A stretch of DNA of 20,753 bases, from the NCBI GenBank assembly GCA_943704525.1, contig CALSCQ010002678.1:1-20753 (forward strand), in the 5' to 3' direction. How positions within the stretch are numbered: position 1 is the first letter of the stretch; each line of letters starts with the position of its first letter. Made by a program: the position numbers and the translations under genes. The notes below the pieces were generated by a model that was not told the DNA's origin, did not search any database, and was given only the letters and a program-made list of their open reading frames with translations. This document shows, one piece after another, positions 1,485-20,645 of the stretch. The DNA comes from Pigoraptor vietnamica. Its lineage: Eukaryota; Opisthokonta; Filasterea.

Positions 1485-3956
1485 ATGGCGATGGCTTCCG
1501 CTTTCATCTTTAGCGCAGATGCGCCGCACGGCACACCTGATCGTGCGCGTGAACTGTGCGCGCGACTGGCTGCCCTCGAGGATGTCCTGGGCGTGGTTGT
1601 GCTGGAAGTGAGGCTGCTGCGCGAGGCGATCACGTGCGCACCTGCAGTCCTCGACGCGCCCCTCGTGCTTCGCGACGTGCCGAGTGTCGGGGGTAACCCG
1701 AAGCTGGCGACGGGTGCCTATAAGCGCGCGGAGTATCACCGGTCCAAGGTGGGGTCGAATGGAGCAGACAACGGCGACCGCGCTCCGCCCGCAGCTGCTG
1801 CTGTGCCTGCGAACTATGCGCCCGTGGCCGCCAACGAAGTCGGCCAGCACCCACGCGATCCAGCATGGCTCCCTGTTGAAGTCGCAAGCGGAGCACCAAC
1901 GAGTCGTACAACGCGTGCTGTTACCCCTGCTGTTGCGAACGACACACGCGTTGTGGCTGAGAGTGCGCACGCTGCGTTGGATGTGCCGACTCAGAGCGAA
2001 TTGGGGCCTATTGCTCCCGGAATTGCGGAGCGTGCAGCCGCATTCGGGCCTGTTAACAACTCGCGCGTCCGCGTTGAAAAGATTGCCCCCGACGTCTCGA
2101 TTGTTGCCGCACGTGTCGCGTCATGGGAGAACCGCGAGTCGCTGCAAAATGCAGGCGTCCGTGTGGCCGTGGGGGAAGCGGTGGGAGAACGGGCGCATGT
2201 CGTCGCATCAGGCGCGCACAACATGAACCCATCGATGCAGGTACCAACGCCGCCCTCGGTGCGCGATGTGCCGCAAGTGGCTCCGTCGACCTCCGCCGAG
2301 TGGCAACTGCCCCACGCGCGTGTGGCAGACCACGTGACTGCGCTCCCGGCCCCTGCGATTGCGAGCGCCGCGCCTATTCGCACAAGCGGTGAGCCAACGA
2401 CTTCCTCCCCTGTCGGCGGAGGGGTCACTTACCCGCAGCCTCTCACAACATCACGTGACATGGTCGACATACTGCCGCCGGGAATCGACCCGGTCGCCTT
2501 TGCGGAACTCCCGGCGGACATTCGCGCGGAAATCCTTGCGACACCCGCGGACAGTGCCCTCGTCACTTTCACAGAGCAAGGCGTTCGGCGCACATTCGAC
2601 AGTCGCAAAAAGCCCGTCTCGGCAGCGGCCAAGCGGATGGCGCTGTACATGGACGCCGACGCCGCTGCCAGTGCCGCACACGACGGAAACGGCGCACCGC
2701 CTTCCCCACTGACGTGTCCTCTCGGCACCGATCCCGATGTGTTTGCCACGCTCCCGCGCTACATTCAGCTGGACATCGTGCGTGGCCACGGGGCCTTCGA
2801 GCATCTCGCAACAGGCGCTGCGAGCGGGGTCGAACGGGCGGCGACAGACGCGGGCGGATCCCCTCTTGCATCGCCAGATACGCCGCGTCCGCAGCTGGAA
2901 GCTCACCGTGACAAGGGGGCGACGGAGGTCTTTTCCATGGCGTCGTCATCCCGCCAGATTCTGCCACCTGCCGCGCTGCCGGCCATGTCACCGTCGCCGA
3001 ATGTGGTGTCCGCCGCTTCCCCAGTCCTCGCGGCTGCTGCGTCGTTTGCAGCGGGCGCGCTTGAGAGCGGGTCGAAGGGAAAGATGCCGGCTGCAACCGA
3101 GGGCTCAGCAGCGCGCGTGGGTCGCGTTCGAATTCCCGCGGCGTTTTGCTCCCCTGGCGACAACGCGCGTACACCGTCACCGCATCGCCGTGCAGCGGAG
3201 CACGTGACTGCCAGCGAACTCGCGTCCCGTTCGAGGGAGAGGGCGGATTGCTCCGCCGTGCACCCCCCGGACGAAAGTTCCGCCGCCTCGTCCACCATGA
3301 GGTGCTGTGTGTGTTTGGAGGACGCGCTGCCAGCGCCGATCAAGTTTAAGGCGAACGAGCAAGGTACCGGTGCACACCGCGATGCGTGCGTGAATTGCGC
3401 ACAGGCGTATGCTCTTGAGCGCGTCGGGGCCGCGGAGAGGGACGTGAGGTGCATGTGCGGCTGCGGCGGAGTTCTTGCGTACATCTGCGTTAGGCGACTG
3501 CTCGGCGACAACGAAGCCGCGAAGGCGCGCTTGGACTCGCTGTTGAGCGAAGTAGTCGTAATGAGTGCCAACGCACGGGCGGCGGCGGAGGATCTCAGGG
3601 TGGTGTTTTGCACAAACCCGCTGTGCGCGTCCGCGCAGCCCACGCCACCGGACTCTGTCGCGATGGTGTGCCGCATGTGCCAGCACCGCACATGCACGCG
3701 CCACGGTCGTCCAGCGCTGAAGAATGTGTGCTGCGCGGGCCACTACGAGGACGAAGAGGAGCGCGCACGTGCGACGCGCGAGCTGCTGGCGCTGGTGACG
3801 AAGGATTGCCCGTCGTGTCACGTGCCCATCGAGAAGAACGGCGGCTGTCGTCACATGACATGCGCGCACTGCAAGCACGAGTTCTTCTGGTGTTGTCTGC
3901 GGGCGTACAGGGACCCCGAGCAGAACAGGGCCCACAACCGCCAGTGCAACGACTGA
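1485..3956 (+). CDS. RBR-type E3 ubiquitin ligase with two UBM-like motifs
   Basis: A single open frame of 823 residues with no intron. The C-terminus (about 605-823) is a RING-IBR-RING module. RING1 is compact and divergent, starting C607/C610. The IBR starts C709/C714. RING2 has C775/C778 then EKNGGC, in which C788 occupies the position of the catalytic thioester cysteine of RBR ligases, then C793/C796 and C803. Residues 1-600 are mostly Ala/Pro/Ser-rich and probably disordered, except two motifs of the Rev1/Pol-iota UBM type. The first is DPVAFAELPADIRAEIL at 335-351; the second is at 416-432, with the diagnostic L423-P424. UBMs bind ubiquitin, so the protein may sense ubiquitin and transfer it. 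ATG 1485 is the first in-frame start; a second Met lies two codons on. Ligase call firm; UBMs likely; substrate unknown. Confidence 0.88.
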   Translation: MAMASAFIFSADAPHGTPDRARELCARLAALEDVLGVVVLEVRLLREAITCAPAVLDAPLVLRDVPSVGGNPKLATGAYKRAEYHRSKVGSNGADNGDRAPPAAAAVPANYAPVAANEVGQHPRDPAWLPVEVASGAPTSRTTRAVTPAVANDTRVVAESAHAALDVPTQSELGPIAPGIAERAAAFGPVNNSRVRVEKIAPDVSIVAARVASWENRESLQNAGVRVAVGEAVGERAHVVASGAHNMNPSMQVPTPPSVRDVPQVAPSTSAEWQLPHARVADHVTALPAPAIASAAPIRTSGEPTTSSPVGGGVTYPQPLTTSRDMVDILPPGIDPVAFAELPADIRAEILATPADSALVTFTEQGVRRTFDSRKKPVSAAAKRMALYMDADAAASAAHDGNGAPPSPLTCPLGTDPDVFATLPRYIQLDIVRGHGAFEHLATGAASGVERAATDAGGSPLASPDTPRPQLEAHRDKGATEVFSMASSSRQILPPAALPAMSPSPNVVSAASPVLAAAASFAAGALESGSKGKMPAATEGSAARVGRVRIPAAFCSPGDNARTPSPHRRAAEHVTASELASRSRERADCSAVHPPDESSAASSTMRCCVCLEDALPAPIKFKANEQGTGAHRDACVNCAQAYALERVGAAERDVRCMCGCGGVLAYICVRRLLGDNEAAKARLDSLLSEVVVMSANARAAAEDLRVVFCTNPLCASAQPTPPDSVAMVCRMCQHRTCTRHGRPALKNVCCAGHYEDEEERARATRELLALVTKDCPSCHVPIEKNGGCRHMTCAHCKHEFFWCCLRAYRDPEQNRAHNRQCND

Positions 3957-14705: not shown

Positions 14706-15053
14706 TGCGTGAGTCGCGACCTCCCCGCGCCGACGAGTGCAACACAGGCCTTCTTGGAGCGAAGTAAATGGGGCTTTCCAGGGCCCGTAATGTGGAGAAG
14801 AGGTGCGTGGAGCAACGCAGGCTCCCAGTGCACGTTCTACAGAGGATCAACCGAGGGACTGATTGCAACTGATGGTGGGGGTTATGTGGCAACGACTGCA
14901 CAATCCGCCCACTAGCCCAGCGACTGCCCCGGCAGAGTGCGACTGCAGAGTGCGACCGCGTGCCACAGCAGAGTGCGACCGCGTGCCTGCTATCCAGCGA
15001 CTGCCCACGAGAGATGCAATTCCGCGCCCCTGCCACGCGGGCCAGACGGGCAT
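14706..15053. promoter_or_regulatory. PEX14 upstream region with nested direct repeats
   Basis: It lies between the PEX14 start and the eL22 stop codon, both on the minus strand. CAGAGTGCGAC occurs at 14933, 14946 and 14969; the last two copies extend to a perfect 19-bp repeat ending CGCGTGCC. This cluster is flanked by two exact copies of CCAGCGACTGCCC at 14917-14929 and 14994-15006. It could be a PEX14 promoter element or part of the eL22 3' UTR. No gene is seen. Confidence 0.5.
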
Positions 15054-15993
15054 TTACTCGGCGTCCTCGGCCTCCTCCTCGTCGCCCTCAATGTTGAAGT
15101 AGCGGAGCTCGTACGCGGCCTTGTTCGTGGCAACCACGCGGAGCCAGTCGCGGAGCTTGTTCTTTTTCAGAAACTTCTTCGTGAGGTACTTGAGGTAGCG
15201 CTTGCTGAACGCGACGCCCTCCGACGACAGCGTGATCTTCGTCTTGTCGCGCGAGATCGACACGTTCTCGCCGAGGTTGTTCGTCTTGCCGTTCACCTTG
15301 ACGCGGTCCTGGAGGAACTTCTCCTGTGCGTGGAAGGCGCGCGTACGCACACACGTGTATGCAGACAGAGTGGGAGCGAGTGCGCCACGCAATGCGACAA
15401 CAGGCAAGTCGTCACACGGCACGAGAGCAACACGCACGAAGGGACACAACACAGAGCGGAGAAAGATGGAGAGCGAAAAAGGCACGGACGGACGTATTAG
15501 CGGCGTGTCGACACACACAACTAGGGAAGGTGACCCTAGGCGACCACAGCACAGCGGGTGGGGCAGGGACTGGGACCGCTGCAACAACGATAGGGAAGAG
15601 AGCCCTATCGCCACACACGCAGCCAGGCCGAGTGCGAGCGAGCACGCGCTTAGGGAAGGTGACCCTAAGCCACACACACAGACACTTATACAAACACGAC
15701 GCCACACACTCGAACAAACACAGGGGACGAACGGAATTGAAAATGAAGATGCGGGTATGGGAACGACTAACGCACAAAGGAAGCGGCATCCATGATCTCG
15801 TCCTCGACGGGGCGGCTGCAGTCCACCGTGAACTTGTGCTGGACCTTCTTCTTGCCCTTCGCGCCCTTGGCGCCCTTCGCGTTCTTCGCGGCAATGCGGG
15901 CCTGCGCACGCACATGTGTAAGACGACGACAAACTGTGGAAGGCAACCAGGGACCGCACTCAAAACGACGTTCGAGGCGCAGATGCGAACCAT
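15054..15993 (-). CDS. RPL22: Ribosomal protein eL22 (L22e)
   Basis: Exons (minus): probably 15993-15991 (ATG alone), then 15901-15776 and 15323-15054, about 132 residues. Exon 2 encodes a Lys/Ala/Gly-rich start ([10 protein letters not shown]) then [20 protein letters not shown]. Exon 3 continues [36 protein letters not shown] and [12 protein letters not shown], ending with an acidic Glu/Asp tail. This is a full-length L22e protein, an RNA-binding component of the large cytosolic ribosomal subunit. Exons 2 and 3 are certain. The first exon is inferred: ATG|GTTCGC has a weak donor, though a first exon with little more than the start codon is common in ribosomal protein genes. The 452-nt second intron is unusually long for this window and carries three hairpins. 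Confidence 0.92.
15521..15670 (-). ncRNA. Three-hairpin structured element in RPL22 intron
   Basis: Three perfect inverted repeats lie at 15521-15539, 15588-15610 and 15648-15670. Each has a 7-nt loop and the same inner stem AGGG/CCCT. The outer stems differ but still pair: CT/AG, CGAT/ATCG and GCTT/AAGC. In the transcript sense the loops read TCACCTT, CTCTCTT and TCACCTT, closed by a G-C pair with U at the 3' side. That is the type of stem-loop eL22 is reported to prefer. All three sit within intron 15775-15324. An intronic RNA structure or a small dispersed inverted repeat are the two readings; I favour the former because of the paired differences. Confidence 0.6.
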
Positions 15994-16377
15994 TTCAGCT
16001 GTCTTCCTCGCGTGCAAGCAACGGAATGTTGAAAGAGAAAGAAAGCGTGATTGCAAAGGGGGATCGCTTTGAAGCTGAGAGAGAGAGAGGAGAGAGAGGG
16101 GGAGAGAGAGAGAGAGAGCACATGGTTTGAAGGGACCTCGGCAGTAATAAATTTCATTTCAATACAATCTCAATACAATCACAACGCGAAAATAATTGGA
16201 CGCGAAATTGAACATCCGGGGTGCCATAAATCGATCACGTGACACGTGTCACAATCAGTTTGCGAAATGCCGTTTGTATTCCCGCACAGCAGACAGCAGC
16301 GGCGACAACACAAGCAACGATTGAACCCCACGGTACGCTCTTCACCCTGCCAAAGGGAGACCCATGTTCTTTTGAGG
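15994..16377 (-). promoter_or_regulatory. eL22 promoter region with pyrimidine tracts
   Basis: Upstream of the eL22 start (minus sense) comes a 15-nt all-pyrimidine run CTTTCTTTCTCTTTC (16045-16031), like a 5' TOP or ribosomal-protein initiator tract. Beyond it are a long (TC)n run (GA on plus, about 16077-16118) and an AT-rich patch at 16140-16220 with a CAATACAATC-type duplication. The region also holds the 3' flank of the Zn2Cys6 gene. Function is inferred. Confidence 0.4.
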
Positions 16378-17954
16378 TTATCGTTGTTGAGGCCCGCTTG
16401 AGGCGCTGTCGGCCGGGCTGTAGATGCCGTCTGCGCGCGCGCCGCCCATCGCCAGCTGGTACCGTGCGCTGTTGGAGTCCGTGTTTGTGTCGTAGAGCCC
16501 GCCCATGTGCATACTGATGTCGTCATGCGTCGTCGGCGCCGTTGTTGGGATGTACGGTACGTGCATACCGTCGCTGAACCCGCGCATTCCGCCCACCCTG
16601 CCAGTCTCGGCGGCCACCCGCGCTTGTGGCGGGCCATAGTCGGAAGCTGCAACCGCACGTGACGCGTAGGCGTGTTGATACTGTTGATAAAACGCCCCGT
16701 CCGACGACATGTCGTACGCGGAATATGGCACGCCGACTTGGTGAACATAGGAGCCCGCGCCGGGATAGTACTCGCTCGCCGGCACCGGCGCTCCGTGCGC
16801 GCCGGCCCCGACACCGGCAGCGTGCGTGTAGTGCGGCTGCTGAGCAAAGGGAAGTTCCGGCTGCGACAGCCCACCGTGCGTTTCCGCCATCAGCTCGTCC
16901 GCAAGGTGGCGCACGGCGGTGCGAGGCGAGACATCGTACATCGGATCCGACATGAAGGGATTTGCCCGACGGAACGCACCAGCGGCGGCACTAAACTGGC
17001 CAAAGTGGCCGCCGTGCATCCCGCGATCGACGCCGGTCCCTCCGAGTACAGCGTCGCCCATGTCGTGGCGATCCGTGTCGATCGAAAGTGCCCGGCGGTC
17101 CGTGACGTGGGAGCCGCGAGTAGTTGCGCCGGTCATCGCAAACGGCGCTTCGAATTCGGGCCGCCAAGGGGCCGGATACTGACTCCTCTCTTCGGGGTGC
17201 ACGTGCACGCTTGCGTATGATGCCGAGTGCGCGGACGACGGCTGCACGGGGGGGTCCTGGTCGCCAAATGAACGGCGCCGGCGCTGTGCGTTCGCGGATT
17301 GATGTGGACTCACGTCCTTCGTGAGGCTTGCTTTGCGCACCCGCCCTCGACCCGCCGCCCCGCCGCGTCCAGACAGGCCGCCACGACCACTGCCTGCAAG
17401 CGCCGCACTGGCCCGTGCAATCTCGTCCGCCAGCACACTCGGCGGTGCCTGCCCGTACTCGTTGGCTGCCGCGTCCTCGCGGAGCTTGTCCGCCTTCGGT
17501 TTCCGGCCCTTCTTCTTCGGCGGGAGATAGTGGCATCGACTTGGGTTGCCCGCGCGAGTGCAATCACTGCAGGGTAGGTTACCGTCGCACGCCTTGTGGG
17601 ACCGCTGCGCCAAGGAATGACCGGACACTTAGCATTCACAGTGACGAGTTGTCAAGCCGTCACAGCATCAGACAGCCCCCCGCCGCGTGGGGCGCCCAAA
17701 AATGCACTCACCCGACAAGGCCCACACGCAGCGTGCGCGGACTTTTGCGCGGGTGTCGTGCGGTCGCCGAAAGATACCGGAGCGCCACCGACATAGTCGA
17801 ACGCTCGCCCGATTGGCTCGCTCACAGTCGCCGACCGGGAAGGGCCAGAGGGGTGCGGCGCATCCGCGGGTTGTGCACCGCCGGAGCTCGCGTGCATCCT
17901 GCTGTGGCGGATGGTTGCCACACGAGGGTCTGAGAGGTAGGGCTCCGTCAGCAT
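16378..17954 (-). CDS. Zn2Cys6 binuclear-cluster transcription factor
   Basis: Exons (minus) 17954-17712 and 17604-16378 give 489 residues. The intron falls inside the zinc cluster: exon 1 ends ACGPCR and exon 2 begins RSHKACDGNLPCSDC. Joined, C77, C80, C87, C93, C96 and C105 give C-x2-C-x6-C-x5-C-x2-C-x8-C, the canonical Zn2Cys6 spacing, followed by a basic linker KKKGRKPK that is a likely nuclear signal. The remaining ~380 residues are low in predicted structure, rich in Gly, Ala, Ser, Tyr and Met, and resemble a transactivation region; no fungal middle homology domain was recognised. Upstream of ATG 17954 the frame stays open to a possible acceptor at 18003 but has no Met. A 13-codon upstream frame (17989-17948) overlaps the start. 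DNA-binding role is firm; targets unknown. Confidence 0.88.
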
Positions 17955-18678: not shown

Positions 18679-20645
18679 TTACAGCTTGGCGTCGGCCTGT
18701 GGCTTTGCGTACATGGCTTGGATTTGCTTGTCGAAGTGCGCCTGCAAAAATGGGAACGCAAACGCTGAATGAGCGTCCAAAGATGGCATGTTGCGCATGG
18801 AGCTCCATCCACGACAACCATCGAAGCGGCTCAGTTGGCTGGTGCCGTACCTTTGCCTGCGGCCTCTTCAGCTTGAAAGTCGGCGTGAGAATGTTGTTCT
18901 CGACGGAGAACGCCTCGGTCGACAGGTAAATGTCCTGTCGGTATCACAGTATTAGTGGCAGTGGTACTCAACATTGAGCGATTGGTAGAACGGAAGCGCA
19001 CCCTGACAATCTCAAACCCCGCGAGTCCGGCCTTGCGCGCCTCCTCCTTCATCGACTCGAGGACGATGGCCTTTACGCGCGGATTGGCCACAATCTCCTT
19101 GGGAGTCGAGCCCAACCCCTTGGTTTTGCAGAAGGGGCTCAAAACCTCAAAATCGGGGACGACGATGCACACCAGATGCGCCTGGAGGGTGTCGCCGTAG
19201 ACGAACGCCTGCGCAACGTAGGGACTGCGAACGTACTGCGAACCGGGACGGGGCCGGACTGACGATGAGGGCGTGATTGAACGGCGTGATTGCGCGTGCG
19301 CAAATACTCTCCGGACCATGCTACATACTAACGATAACTGAAACGAAAGCCCGGTTCTGCCCACAACACCCACCACGTTCTCAATCTTCTCTGGCGCGAC
19401 GTACTCGCCCTGCGCGAGCTTGAAGATGCTCTTCTTGCGGTCGATGATGGAGAGCGTGCCATCGGGGTTCCACCGGCCAATGTCGCCGGTGTGAAGCCAT
19501 CCCTCCGAGTCCAGCGCCTCACCTGTACATTGCGGGCGCAGTTGGCAGTGGGTTACCGTGAGTGCATTGAACAGCGAGTGGAGTCGAGTGCATCGGGCAG
19601 CGAGTGAAAGCGAGTGCATTAGACAGCGAGCGACGACGGACGTGTTGGGTGGTGAGTGGGGAGGAGCGCATTGAACAGCAAGTCGAGTCAAGTGCATTGG
19701 GCAGCGAGTGGGGAGGAGGGCATTGAACGACGAGGAGTCGAGGGCATTGGGTAGCGAGTGGGTGAATCGAGTGCATTGAACAGCGAGTGAAGGCGAGCGC
19801 ATTGAACAGCGAGGGAAGACGCCGCGTTAGTAGTGCGAGAATCAAGGGTTGCGGTGATGACCGGCACTCACGTGTCTGTTCCGGCTTGTTGAGATACCCG
19901 ATAAACACGTGGGGTCCACGAACGCAGACCTCCCCTGCGATAAGCGCGCGATAAGCCGACGCACACTGTCGCGATTCACAAGAAAATCGTTTGGATATCG
20001 TTCCGCATAGTTTGCGTTCAGGACAGCGAAAGAAAGCAGGCAGTTTGCACTAACCGCGGGGGCACGGGGCATCCGTTGTGAGGTACTCCATGTCCGGCAC
20101 GTCAACGAGCTTGACTTCGCACACGGGGAGGGGCACGCCCACGTGGCCAACAGAGTAATCGCCGCGCATGCCTATCGATGGATGCACGCGAGGCAGTTGG
20201 TCACCGGAATCACCATGAGGTAACAATTCTCCGAGACACGCCCTCCACCACCCACTGAGCGTTGCGGCTGCCGTGCACTCGGTCTGGCCGAACCCCTCGT
20301 ACACCTCGCAGGAGAAGGCCACGCGAAGGAATGAAATGACCTCTGGGGAGATGGGGGCCGCGCCCGTCACCATCGCACGCACGCGGCCGCCGAGACGCGC
20401 GCGCACCTTGGCGAAAACAAGGCTGCAGTGCGCATATGAGAACAGGGAATTTCTCGGGGGTGGGCCAACAATTGCAGATGTTCAACGGAAACGCATCGCA
20501 CGTCCGCGCTCACCGATCATAGACGGCGTGCGTGAGCGTGCCGTGCTCGCGCAGGTTCGCCAGCTTCGCGGCGAGGGCGCGGTCGAACAGTGCCTTCTTC
20601 GCACCACCGGCCTCGTTCACCGTGGCTATGATCTTCGAGTACAGC
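18679..20645 (-). CDS. Long-chain acyl-CoA synthetase, C-terminal half, PTS1-ending
   Basis: Exons (minus): 20645-20514, 20422-20256, 20171-20055, 19934-19872, 19522-19374, 19235-19002, 18934-18851 and 18741-18679, giving 335 residues; the N-terminal half lies beyond the right edge. Phases agree at all seven introns. Motifs in order: [14 protein letters not shown], then VYEGFGQTE (ATP/AMP-binding), [33 protein letters not shown] with [10 protein letters not shown] and [14 protein letters not shown] (FACS signature), and [16 protein letters not shown]. This family activates long-chain fatty acids to acyl-CoA with ATP. The protein ends DAKL-stop, and AKL is a PTS1-type peroxisomal signal, so a role in peroxisomal fatty-acid activation is likely. 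Bases 20646-20753 appear to be intron. Confidence 0.93.
19560..19820. repeat. 26-bp minisatellite, about 10 copies, in synthetase intron
   Basis: Tandem units of 26 bp, consensus GAGTGCATTGAACAGCGAGT plus six variable bases, fill most of the 349-nt intron 19871-19523. One unit is badly degenerate and others differ by a few bases or short indels. Since 26 is not a multiple of three, the array shifts frame each unit. It nevertheless stays open on the minus strand and produces long false reading frames. Confidence 0.88.

Follow-up and report, generated by a model that had tools for sequence, protein, structure and literature searches.

The 20,753-nucleotide stretch of DNA from the filasterean Pigoraptor vietnamica analysed here (the window) contains a ribosomal protein gene with three similar hairpins clustered in one of its introns, and the question that this locus raises is whether those hairpins could be sites at which the encoded protein, eL22, acts on the splicing of its own transcript. 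There is precedent for such a circuit: yeast Rpl22 inhibits the splicing of RPL22B via an intronic structure (PMC4838235), and the RPL22 gene of K. lactis is likewise regulated (PMC5755908).

Identity and structure of the host gene

A preliminary description of this DNA had assigned the host gene to eL22, and the assignment holds, since the Pfam L22e profile has a single match in the 32.5-Mb assembly (two candidates were scored) and the hand-spliced protein covers 110 of the 110 profile positions; on sequence evidence, the host gene is eL22. It is encoded on the minus strand. Exon 3, which includes the stop codon (15,054–15,323), is preceded by exon 2 (15,776–15,901, 42 codons), predicted from the translation, and by a putative exon 1 (15,991–15,993) that consists of the ATG only, is followed by the donor GTTCGC and is the weakest part of the gene model. 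The host intron, GTGCGT...CACGCACAG, spans 452 nt (15,324–15,775, minus strand), with boundaries predicted from the continuation of the eL22 protein across exons 2 and 3.

Among solved structures, those closest to the encoded protein include the eL22 chains 7oyc_U1 and 3j7o_U, which we take to be of vertebrate origin. Two basic segments of the protein, KRYLK and KKFLKK, correspond in the alignment to residues 80–84 (KRYLK) and 88–93 (KKYLKK), respectively, of 3j7o_U (numbering counted by hand). High-affinity RNA binding by eL22 has been reported to depend on residues 88–93, which are essential, with a contribution from residues 80–84 (PMC2668802); judging by the alignment, the residues required for RNA binding are conserved in the Pigoraptor protein. 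Scans of viral and of bacterial and archaeal contigs for eL22 returned no relative, a result without bearing on conservation.

Three hairpins with paired stem differences

The preliminary description had reported three perfect hairpins with 7-nt loops within 150 bp, and all three were located, with perfect stems of 6, 8 and 8 bp for hairpins 1, 2 and 3, respectively, and a loop of 7 nt in each. On the minus strand, in the order of the transcript, they are hairpin 3 (15,648–15,670, intron nt 106–128), which reads GCUUAGGG-UCACCUU-CCCUAAGC and has an 8-bp stem, hairpin 2 (15,588–15,610, intron nt 166–188), CGAUAGGG-CUCUCUU-CCCUAUCG, also with 8 bp, and hairpin 1 (15,521–15,539, intron nt 237–255), CUAGGG-UCACCUU-CCCUAG, with 6 bp. 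The corresponding readings of the plus strand are CTAGGG/AAGGTGA/CCCTAG for hairpin 1, CGATAGGG/AAGAGAG/CCCTATCG for hairpin 2 and GCTTAGGG/AAGGTGA/CCCTAAGC for hairpin 3.

The form common to the three sense-strand hairpins is UAGGG-N4-CUU-CCCUA. The inner AGGG/CCCT that had been proposed as the shared core is indeed present, but the invariant part proved slightly larger, comprising 13 of 23 columns (read along the sense strand, TAGGG....(N)CTTCCCTA); within the loop, the 3' CUU is invariant and positions 1–4 vary. The further claim, that the outer pairs differ between copies and nevertheless all pair, stands in part. Both arms change at three of the eight stem positions, the outer three positions varying among the copies, but the fifth pair is a constant T-A, so that hairpin 1 has one differing Watson-Crick pair only. 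When the three stems are compared over all eight positions, standard pairs fill 23 of the 24 cells, one of them as G-U, and both this G-U and the single mismatch belong to hairpin 1.

The paired stem differences are real as read from the three copies, and the statistics that can be derived from so few are weak: the observed covariation values were reached by 17 to 32 of 500 shuffles. Slid registers score far worse than the aligned one, in a comparison that favours the latter, the structure having been derived from the same three sequences. Given the core, the probability of the seven outer Watson-Crick pairs, computed post hoc from the composition of the intron, is about 3e-5.

Fit to the eL22 ligand consensus

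In vitro selection (SELEX) has yielded a consensus for eL22 ligands that consists of a stem closed by a G-C pair and a loop of 5–9 nt in which the 3'-most base is U (PMC4838235); elsewhere, the loop is given as 5–7 nt, with the same 3'-most base (PMC2668802). On the sense strand, all three hairpins have a G-C loop-closing pair and a 7-nt loop ending in UU, which agrees with the consensus and bears out what had been stated of the transcript. On the antisense strand none of the three agrees with it, the terminal loop bases there being A, G and A. With regard to what such a fit implies for binding, of two sites in Alox12 that match the consensus, one failed to bind Rpl22 (PMC12820725). By their agreement with the consensus, the intron hairpins are probably to be regarded as candidate eL22 binding sites.

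Rarity of the hairpins in the genome

The preliminary description had suggested a search for copies elsewhere as a check, and no dispersed repeat emerged. The motif TAGGGN7CCCTA has five occurrences in the 32.5-Mb assembly, three in the eL22 intron and only two outside it, versus eight matches per strand for the same motif read backward, and is therefore not enriched genome-wide. The 17-mer core shared by hairpins 1 and 3, allowed up to two mismatches, occurs at three places in the assembly, of which two are in the eL22 intron. For the inner core AGGGN5TTCCCT there are 30 matches, three of them in the intron (38 for the backward control); the 27 others lie singly, the eL22 contig being the only one with more than one match, and the stems at these 27 sites reach 4 bp in 20 cases, 5 in three and 6 in four, with none of 7 or 8 bp. 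A dispersed mobile inverted repeat was considered and is ruled out by these few, singly lying copies within the scope of the search, an assembly that includes N stretches.

A survey of hairpins covered the window and 18 other 9-kb pieces, 182,753 bp in all including 3,447 N; the pieces are the first 9 kb of contigs named by earlier searches and thus a non-random draw. In this sample there are 55 hairpins with a stem of at least 6 bp and a loop of 7 nt, and the only trio of them within 200 bp is that of the eL22 intron. The eL22 consensus itself is loose, being matched by 42 hairpins with stems of at least 6 bp in 365,506 strand-bases, the intron trio included; here too, the intron provides the sole trio within 200 nt. 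A chance origin of the hairpin trio is unlikely.

A generic repeat finder did not list the three hairpins because it was set to arms of at least 10 bases and theirs are shorter. Rfam 15, applied to 14,900–16,200, gave one match up to an E-value of 5, at 15,890–15,913, outside the intron, with 20.1 bits versus a gathering score of 35, and a tRNA scan of the whole window found no genes. As for the rRNA of the organism, neither 28S patterns (up to three mismatches) nor the 5.8S family was found in the assembly, where rDNA may be missing or divergent.

Folding of the intron RNA

The intron RNA folds better than its shuffled controls, in keeping with the preliminary description, which had put forward this comparison as a check: the sense 150-mer has a folding energy of -63.0 kcal/mol and a z-score of -3.29, with one of 200 shuffles as good, and the whole intron has a z-score of -3.6 (100 shuffles). 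The value for the antisense strand (z -3.66) is similar, and the z-score fails to tell the two strands apart. The best structures do differ, as three separate hairpins are formed by the sense strand only, and in the antisense strand hairpin 1 is paired with hairpin 3.

Hairpin 2 is predicted to pair with a probability of 0.9–1.0 both with flanks and in the intron alone. For hairpin 3 the probability is 0.91–1.0 when the intron is folded with 100-nt flanks; in the intron alone, its inner six pairs remain at 0.91–1.0, the next pair is at 0.57 and the outermost G is mainly paired elsewhere (0.55). Hairpin 1 depends on context in the opposite direction, with 0.62–0.86 in the presence of 100-nt flanks and 0.98–1.0 in the intron alone. 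The loops of the sense-strand hairpins are unpaired at 0.87–1.0. The same folds contain a pairing of the intron ends: the donor GUGCGU (15,770–15,775) is perfectly complementary to ACGCAC (15,326–15,331), just 5' of the acceptor AG, and the two pair at 0.84–0.94 in the intron alone; with 100-nt exon flanks, the best partners of the donor are exonic.

Predicted consequences of retention and position of the candidate branch point

When exon 2 is read into the intron, the sequence continues as GTG CGT TAG, an in-frame stop at the third intron codon, and a retained intron would therefore terminate the protein at about 45 residues and abolish the production of full eL22. The intron has a single CTRAY, CTAAT (15,496–15,500, minus strand, intron nt 276–280), which is the candidate branch point and begins 177 nt before the intron end, 20 nt past hairpin 1. 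The distribution of AG dinucleotides is uneven: ten occur in intron nt 1–255, where the hairpins account for five, and the 195-nt tract that extends from hairpin 1 to the terminal AG (15,326–15,520, minus strand) contains none. An AG-free run of this length arose in 81 of 20,000 shuffles of the whole intron, and shuffles of the tract only were free of AG in 114 of 20,000. The AG-free stretch between a branch point and its acceptor is termed the AG exclusion zone. The distance of the sole CTRAY, taken together with this tract, points to a branch point that is likely to be far from the acceptor and followed by an AG exclusion zone; weaker branch sites may lie closer to the acceptor. For comparison, one other intron of this genome, from a gene that looks eL30-like by eye, has CTGAC at -27 and an AG-free run of 60 nt. 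CT-rich repeats are present in a long intron of an eL30-like gene.

The local structure around the candidate branch point is unsettled, as the pairing of its A differs between folds: mostly unpaired with flanks, it is paired at 0.92 with a downstream stretch in the intron alone. In the flanked fold, the CTA of the branch point (15,496–15,500) also pairs with the 3' arm of hairpin 1 (15,521–15,523) in a minority of structures (0.21–0.36), a possible switch.

A possible feedback mechanism and its alternatives

The hairpins are shaped like known eL22 ligands, and the gene that carries them in an intron is that of eL22 itself, which suggests that eL22 probably senses its own excess. We assign a probability of about 0.6 to the reading in which the three hairpins bind the encoded eL22 and an excess of the protein hinders its own splicing, lowering synthesis. 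Under this proposal, eL22 made in excess of rRNA would give rise to free nuclear eL22, which would bind the pre-mRNA hairpins beside the likely branch point and, once bound, hinder splicing. In the retained intron, the frame would end after two codons, leading to a fragment of some 45 residues or to decay of the message, and in either case the synthesis of eL22 would drop; the presence of three sites would steepen the response. We infer the intron, the binding, an inhibitory rather than activating effect on splicing, and the steepening ascribed to the three sites. A more elaborate version, in which an rRNA-type eL22 ligand, present in triplicate, immediately precedes a distant branch point with its AG exclusion zone and free eL22 gates the use of that branch point cooperatively, a feedback with the logic of yeast and a different RNA element, is tentative, and we would judge the odds to be somewhat against it. 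Since in the predicted folds the CTA of the branch point can pair, in a minority of structures, with hairpin 1 at its 3' arm, and the branch-point A with a downstream stretch in the intron alone, a protein fixing hairpin 1 could free the branch point, and the effect of eL22 could thus have the opposite sign.

Some explanations do without eL22. The RNA structure might compact the intron, shield cryptic sites, mark unspliced RNA for cleavage or bind another protein, and stems that are locally stable, in an intron whose branch point is likely to be distant, would suit such roles. Structural splicing enhancers are known in ribosomal protein genes, e.g. RPL7B (PMC12311795), and RNase III has the intron of unspliced RPS22B as a substrate (PMC7732827). 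Structure alone, however, requires neither a 3' loop CUU that is invariant in all three hairpins nor three identical inner stems, and would leave to coincidence the match with the ligand of the encoded protein, so that we consider this account unlikely. A palindrome looks alike in DNA and RNA, and with a constant spacer TAGGG-N7-CCCTA might instead be a DNA site for an intragenic dimeric transcription factor. A protein reading TAGGG half-sites would leave the paired outer changes unexplained, as well as the conserved, asymmetric end of the spacer, and the motif, at five places in 32.5 Mb versus eight for the control, is not enriched elsewhere; this reading appears quite improbable.

It is also conceivable that one functionless inverted repeat was copied locally within the intron and that the rest is chance. 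Hairpins 1 and 3 do share loop and inner stem, and among six comparisons of flanks, a GT-rich 14-mer 5' of hairpins 2 and 3 stands out, as it is equalled by 2.5% of random pairs. The five remaining comparisons, which are ordinary (26–100% of random pairs score as high), argue against duplication, and the hairpins thus stand out from their surroundings. Also at odds with this reading are outer stems that change on both arms and still pair, and the 27 other core matches, the stems of which are confined to 4–6 bp. We regard local duplication with chance as very improbable, and feedback by eL22 on its own splicing as the preferred reading.

Relation to known systems

As an eL22 gene with intronic RNA, the Pigoraptor locus is like S. 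cerevisiae RPL22B and RPL22A and K. lactis RPL22, where the lowering of splicing by the protein, proposed here, has been shown (PMC4838235, PMC5755908). The yeast precedent invoked in the preliminary description supports the principle of feedback and not the form of the hairpins, since the RPL22B element is reported to be unlike the rRNA stem-loop or the SELEX motif: stacked stems and internal loops make up one structure, in which the bases of the apical loop are immaterial (PMC4838235). Pigoraptor, unlike yeast, has three separate hairpins of the SELEX type. Compared by description, the yeast element contains a distal stem and an internal loop, CCCU/UGAA; the hairpins here have no internal loop.

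The hairpins have counterparts in the stem-loops of EBER1, stem-loop 7 of 28S rRNA and a hairpin in exon 2 of zebrafish Rpl22l1, all with the same G-C neck, short loop and 3' loop U; EBER1 also resembles the intron trio in having three eL22 sites (PMC2668802, PMC3750023). These are, respectively, a viral RNA, an rRNA and an exon of a paralogue, whereas here the RNA is the eL22 gene's own intron. The feedback reading thus resembles, by analogy, yeast RPL22B, and the hairpins resemble mammalian eL22 ligands. Human RPL22 acts on stem-loops of MDM4 intron 6, which parallels the proposal made here in that eL22 on intronic stem-loops alters splicing, but the target is another gene and the outcome is exon skipping (PMC12110047). 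Autoregulation via splicing is also found in RPL30, RPS14B and RPL7B, with other proteins and structures (PMC4838235, PMC12311795); in RPL30 and RPS14B the 5' splice site lies within the structure (PMC4838235), whereas the first hairpin here starts at intron nt 106. Among the matches listed from the open-licence literature, none describes such a hairpin array or RPL22 feedback via SELEX-type hairpins in its own intron.

If the proposed feedback is true, it would join the eL22 hairpin consensus selected in vitro with the control by eL22 of its own gene, and would point to a repeated emergence of eL22 feedback on the basis of different RNA. It would also offer a compact, three-site element for the dose response of a sensor of free ribosomal protein.

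Other features of the window

Three further open reading frames in the window deserve mention. The start of one on the minus strand (16,378–17,628) has a cysteine pattern resembling, by eye, part of a Zn2Cys6 DNA-binding domain, with no Pfam match at an E-value of 0.01. Another on the minus strand (18,831–19,802) includes a stretch ending in IIDRKK that resembles, also by eye, an AMP-forming acyl-CoA synthetase; it too has no Pfam match at 0.01, perhaps because introns interrupt the frame. On the plus strand, a frame of 823 amino acids (1,485–3,956) contains an IBR domain and a ubiquitin-binding UBM region according to Pfam and possibly encodes an RBR-like ubiquitin ligase.
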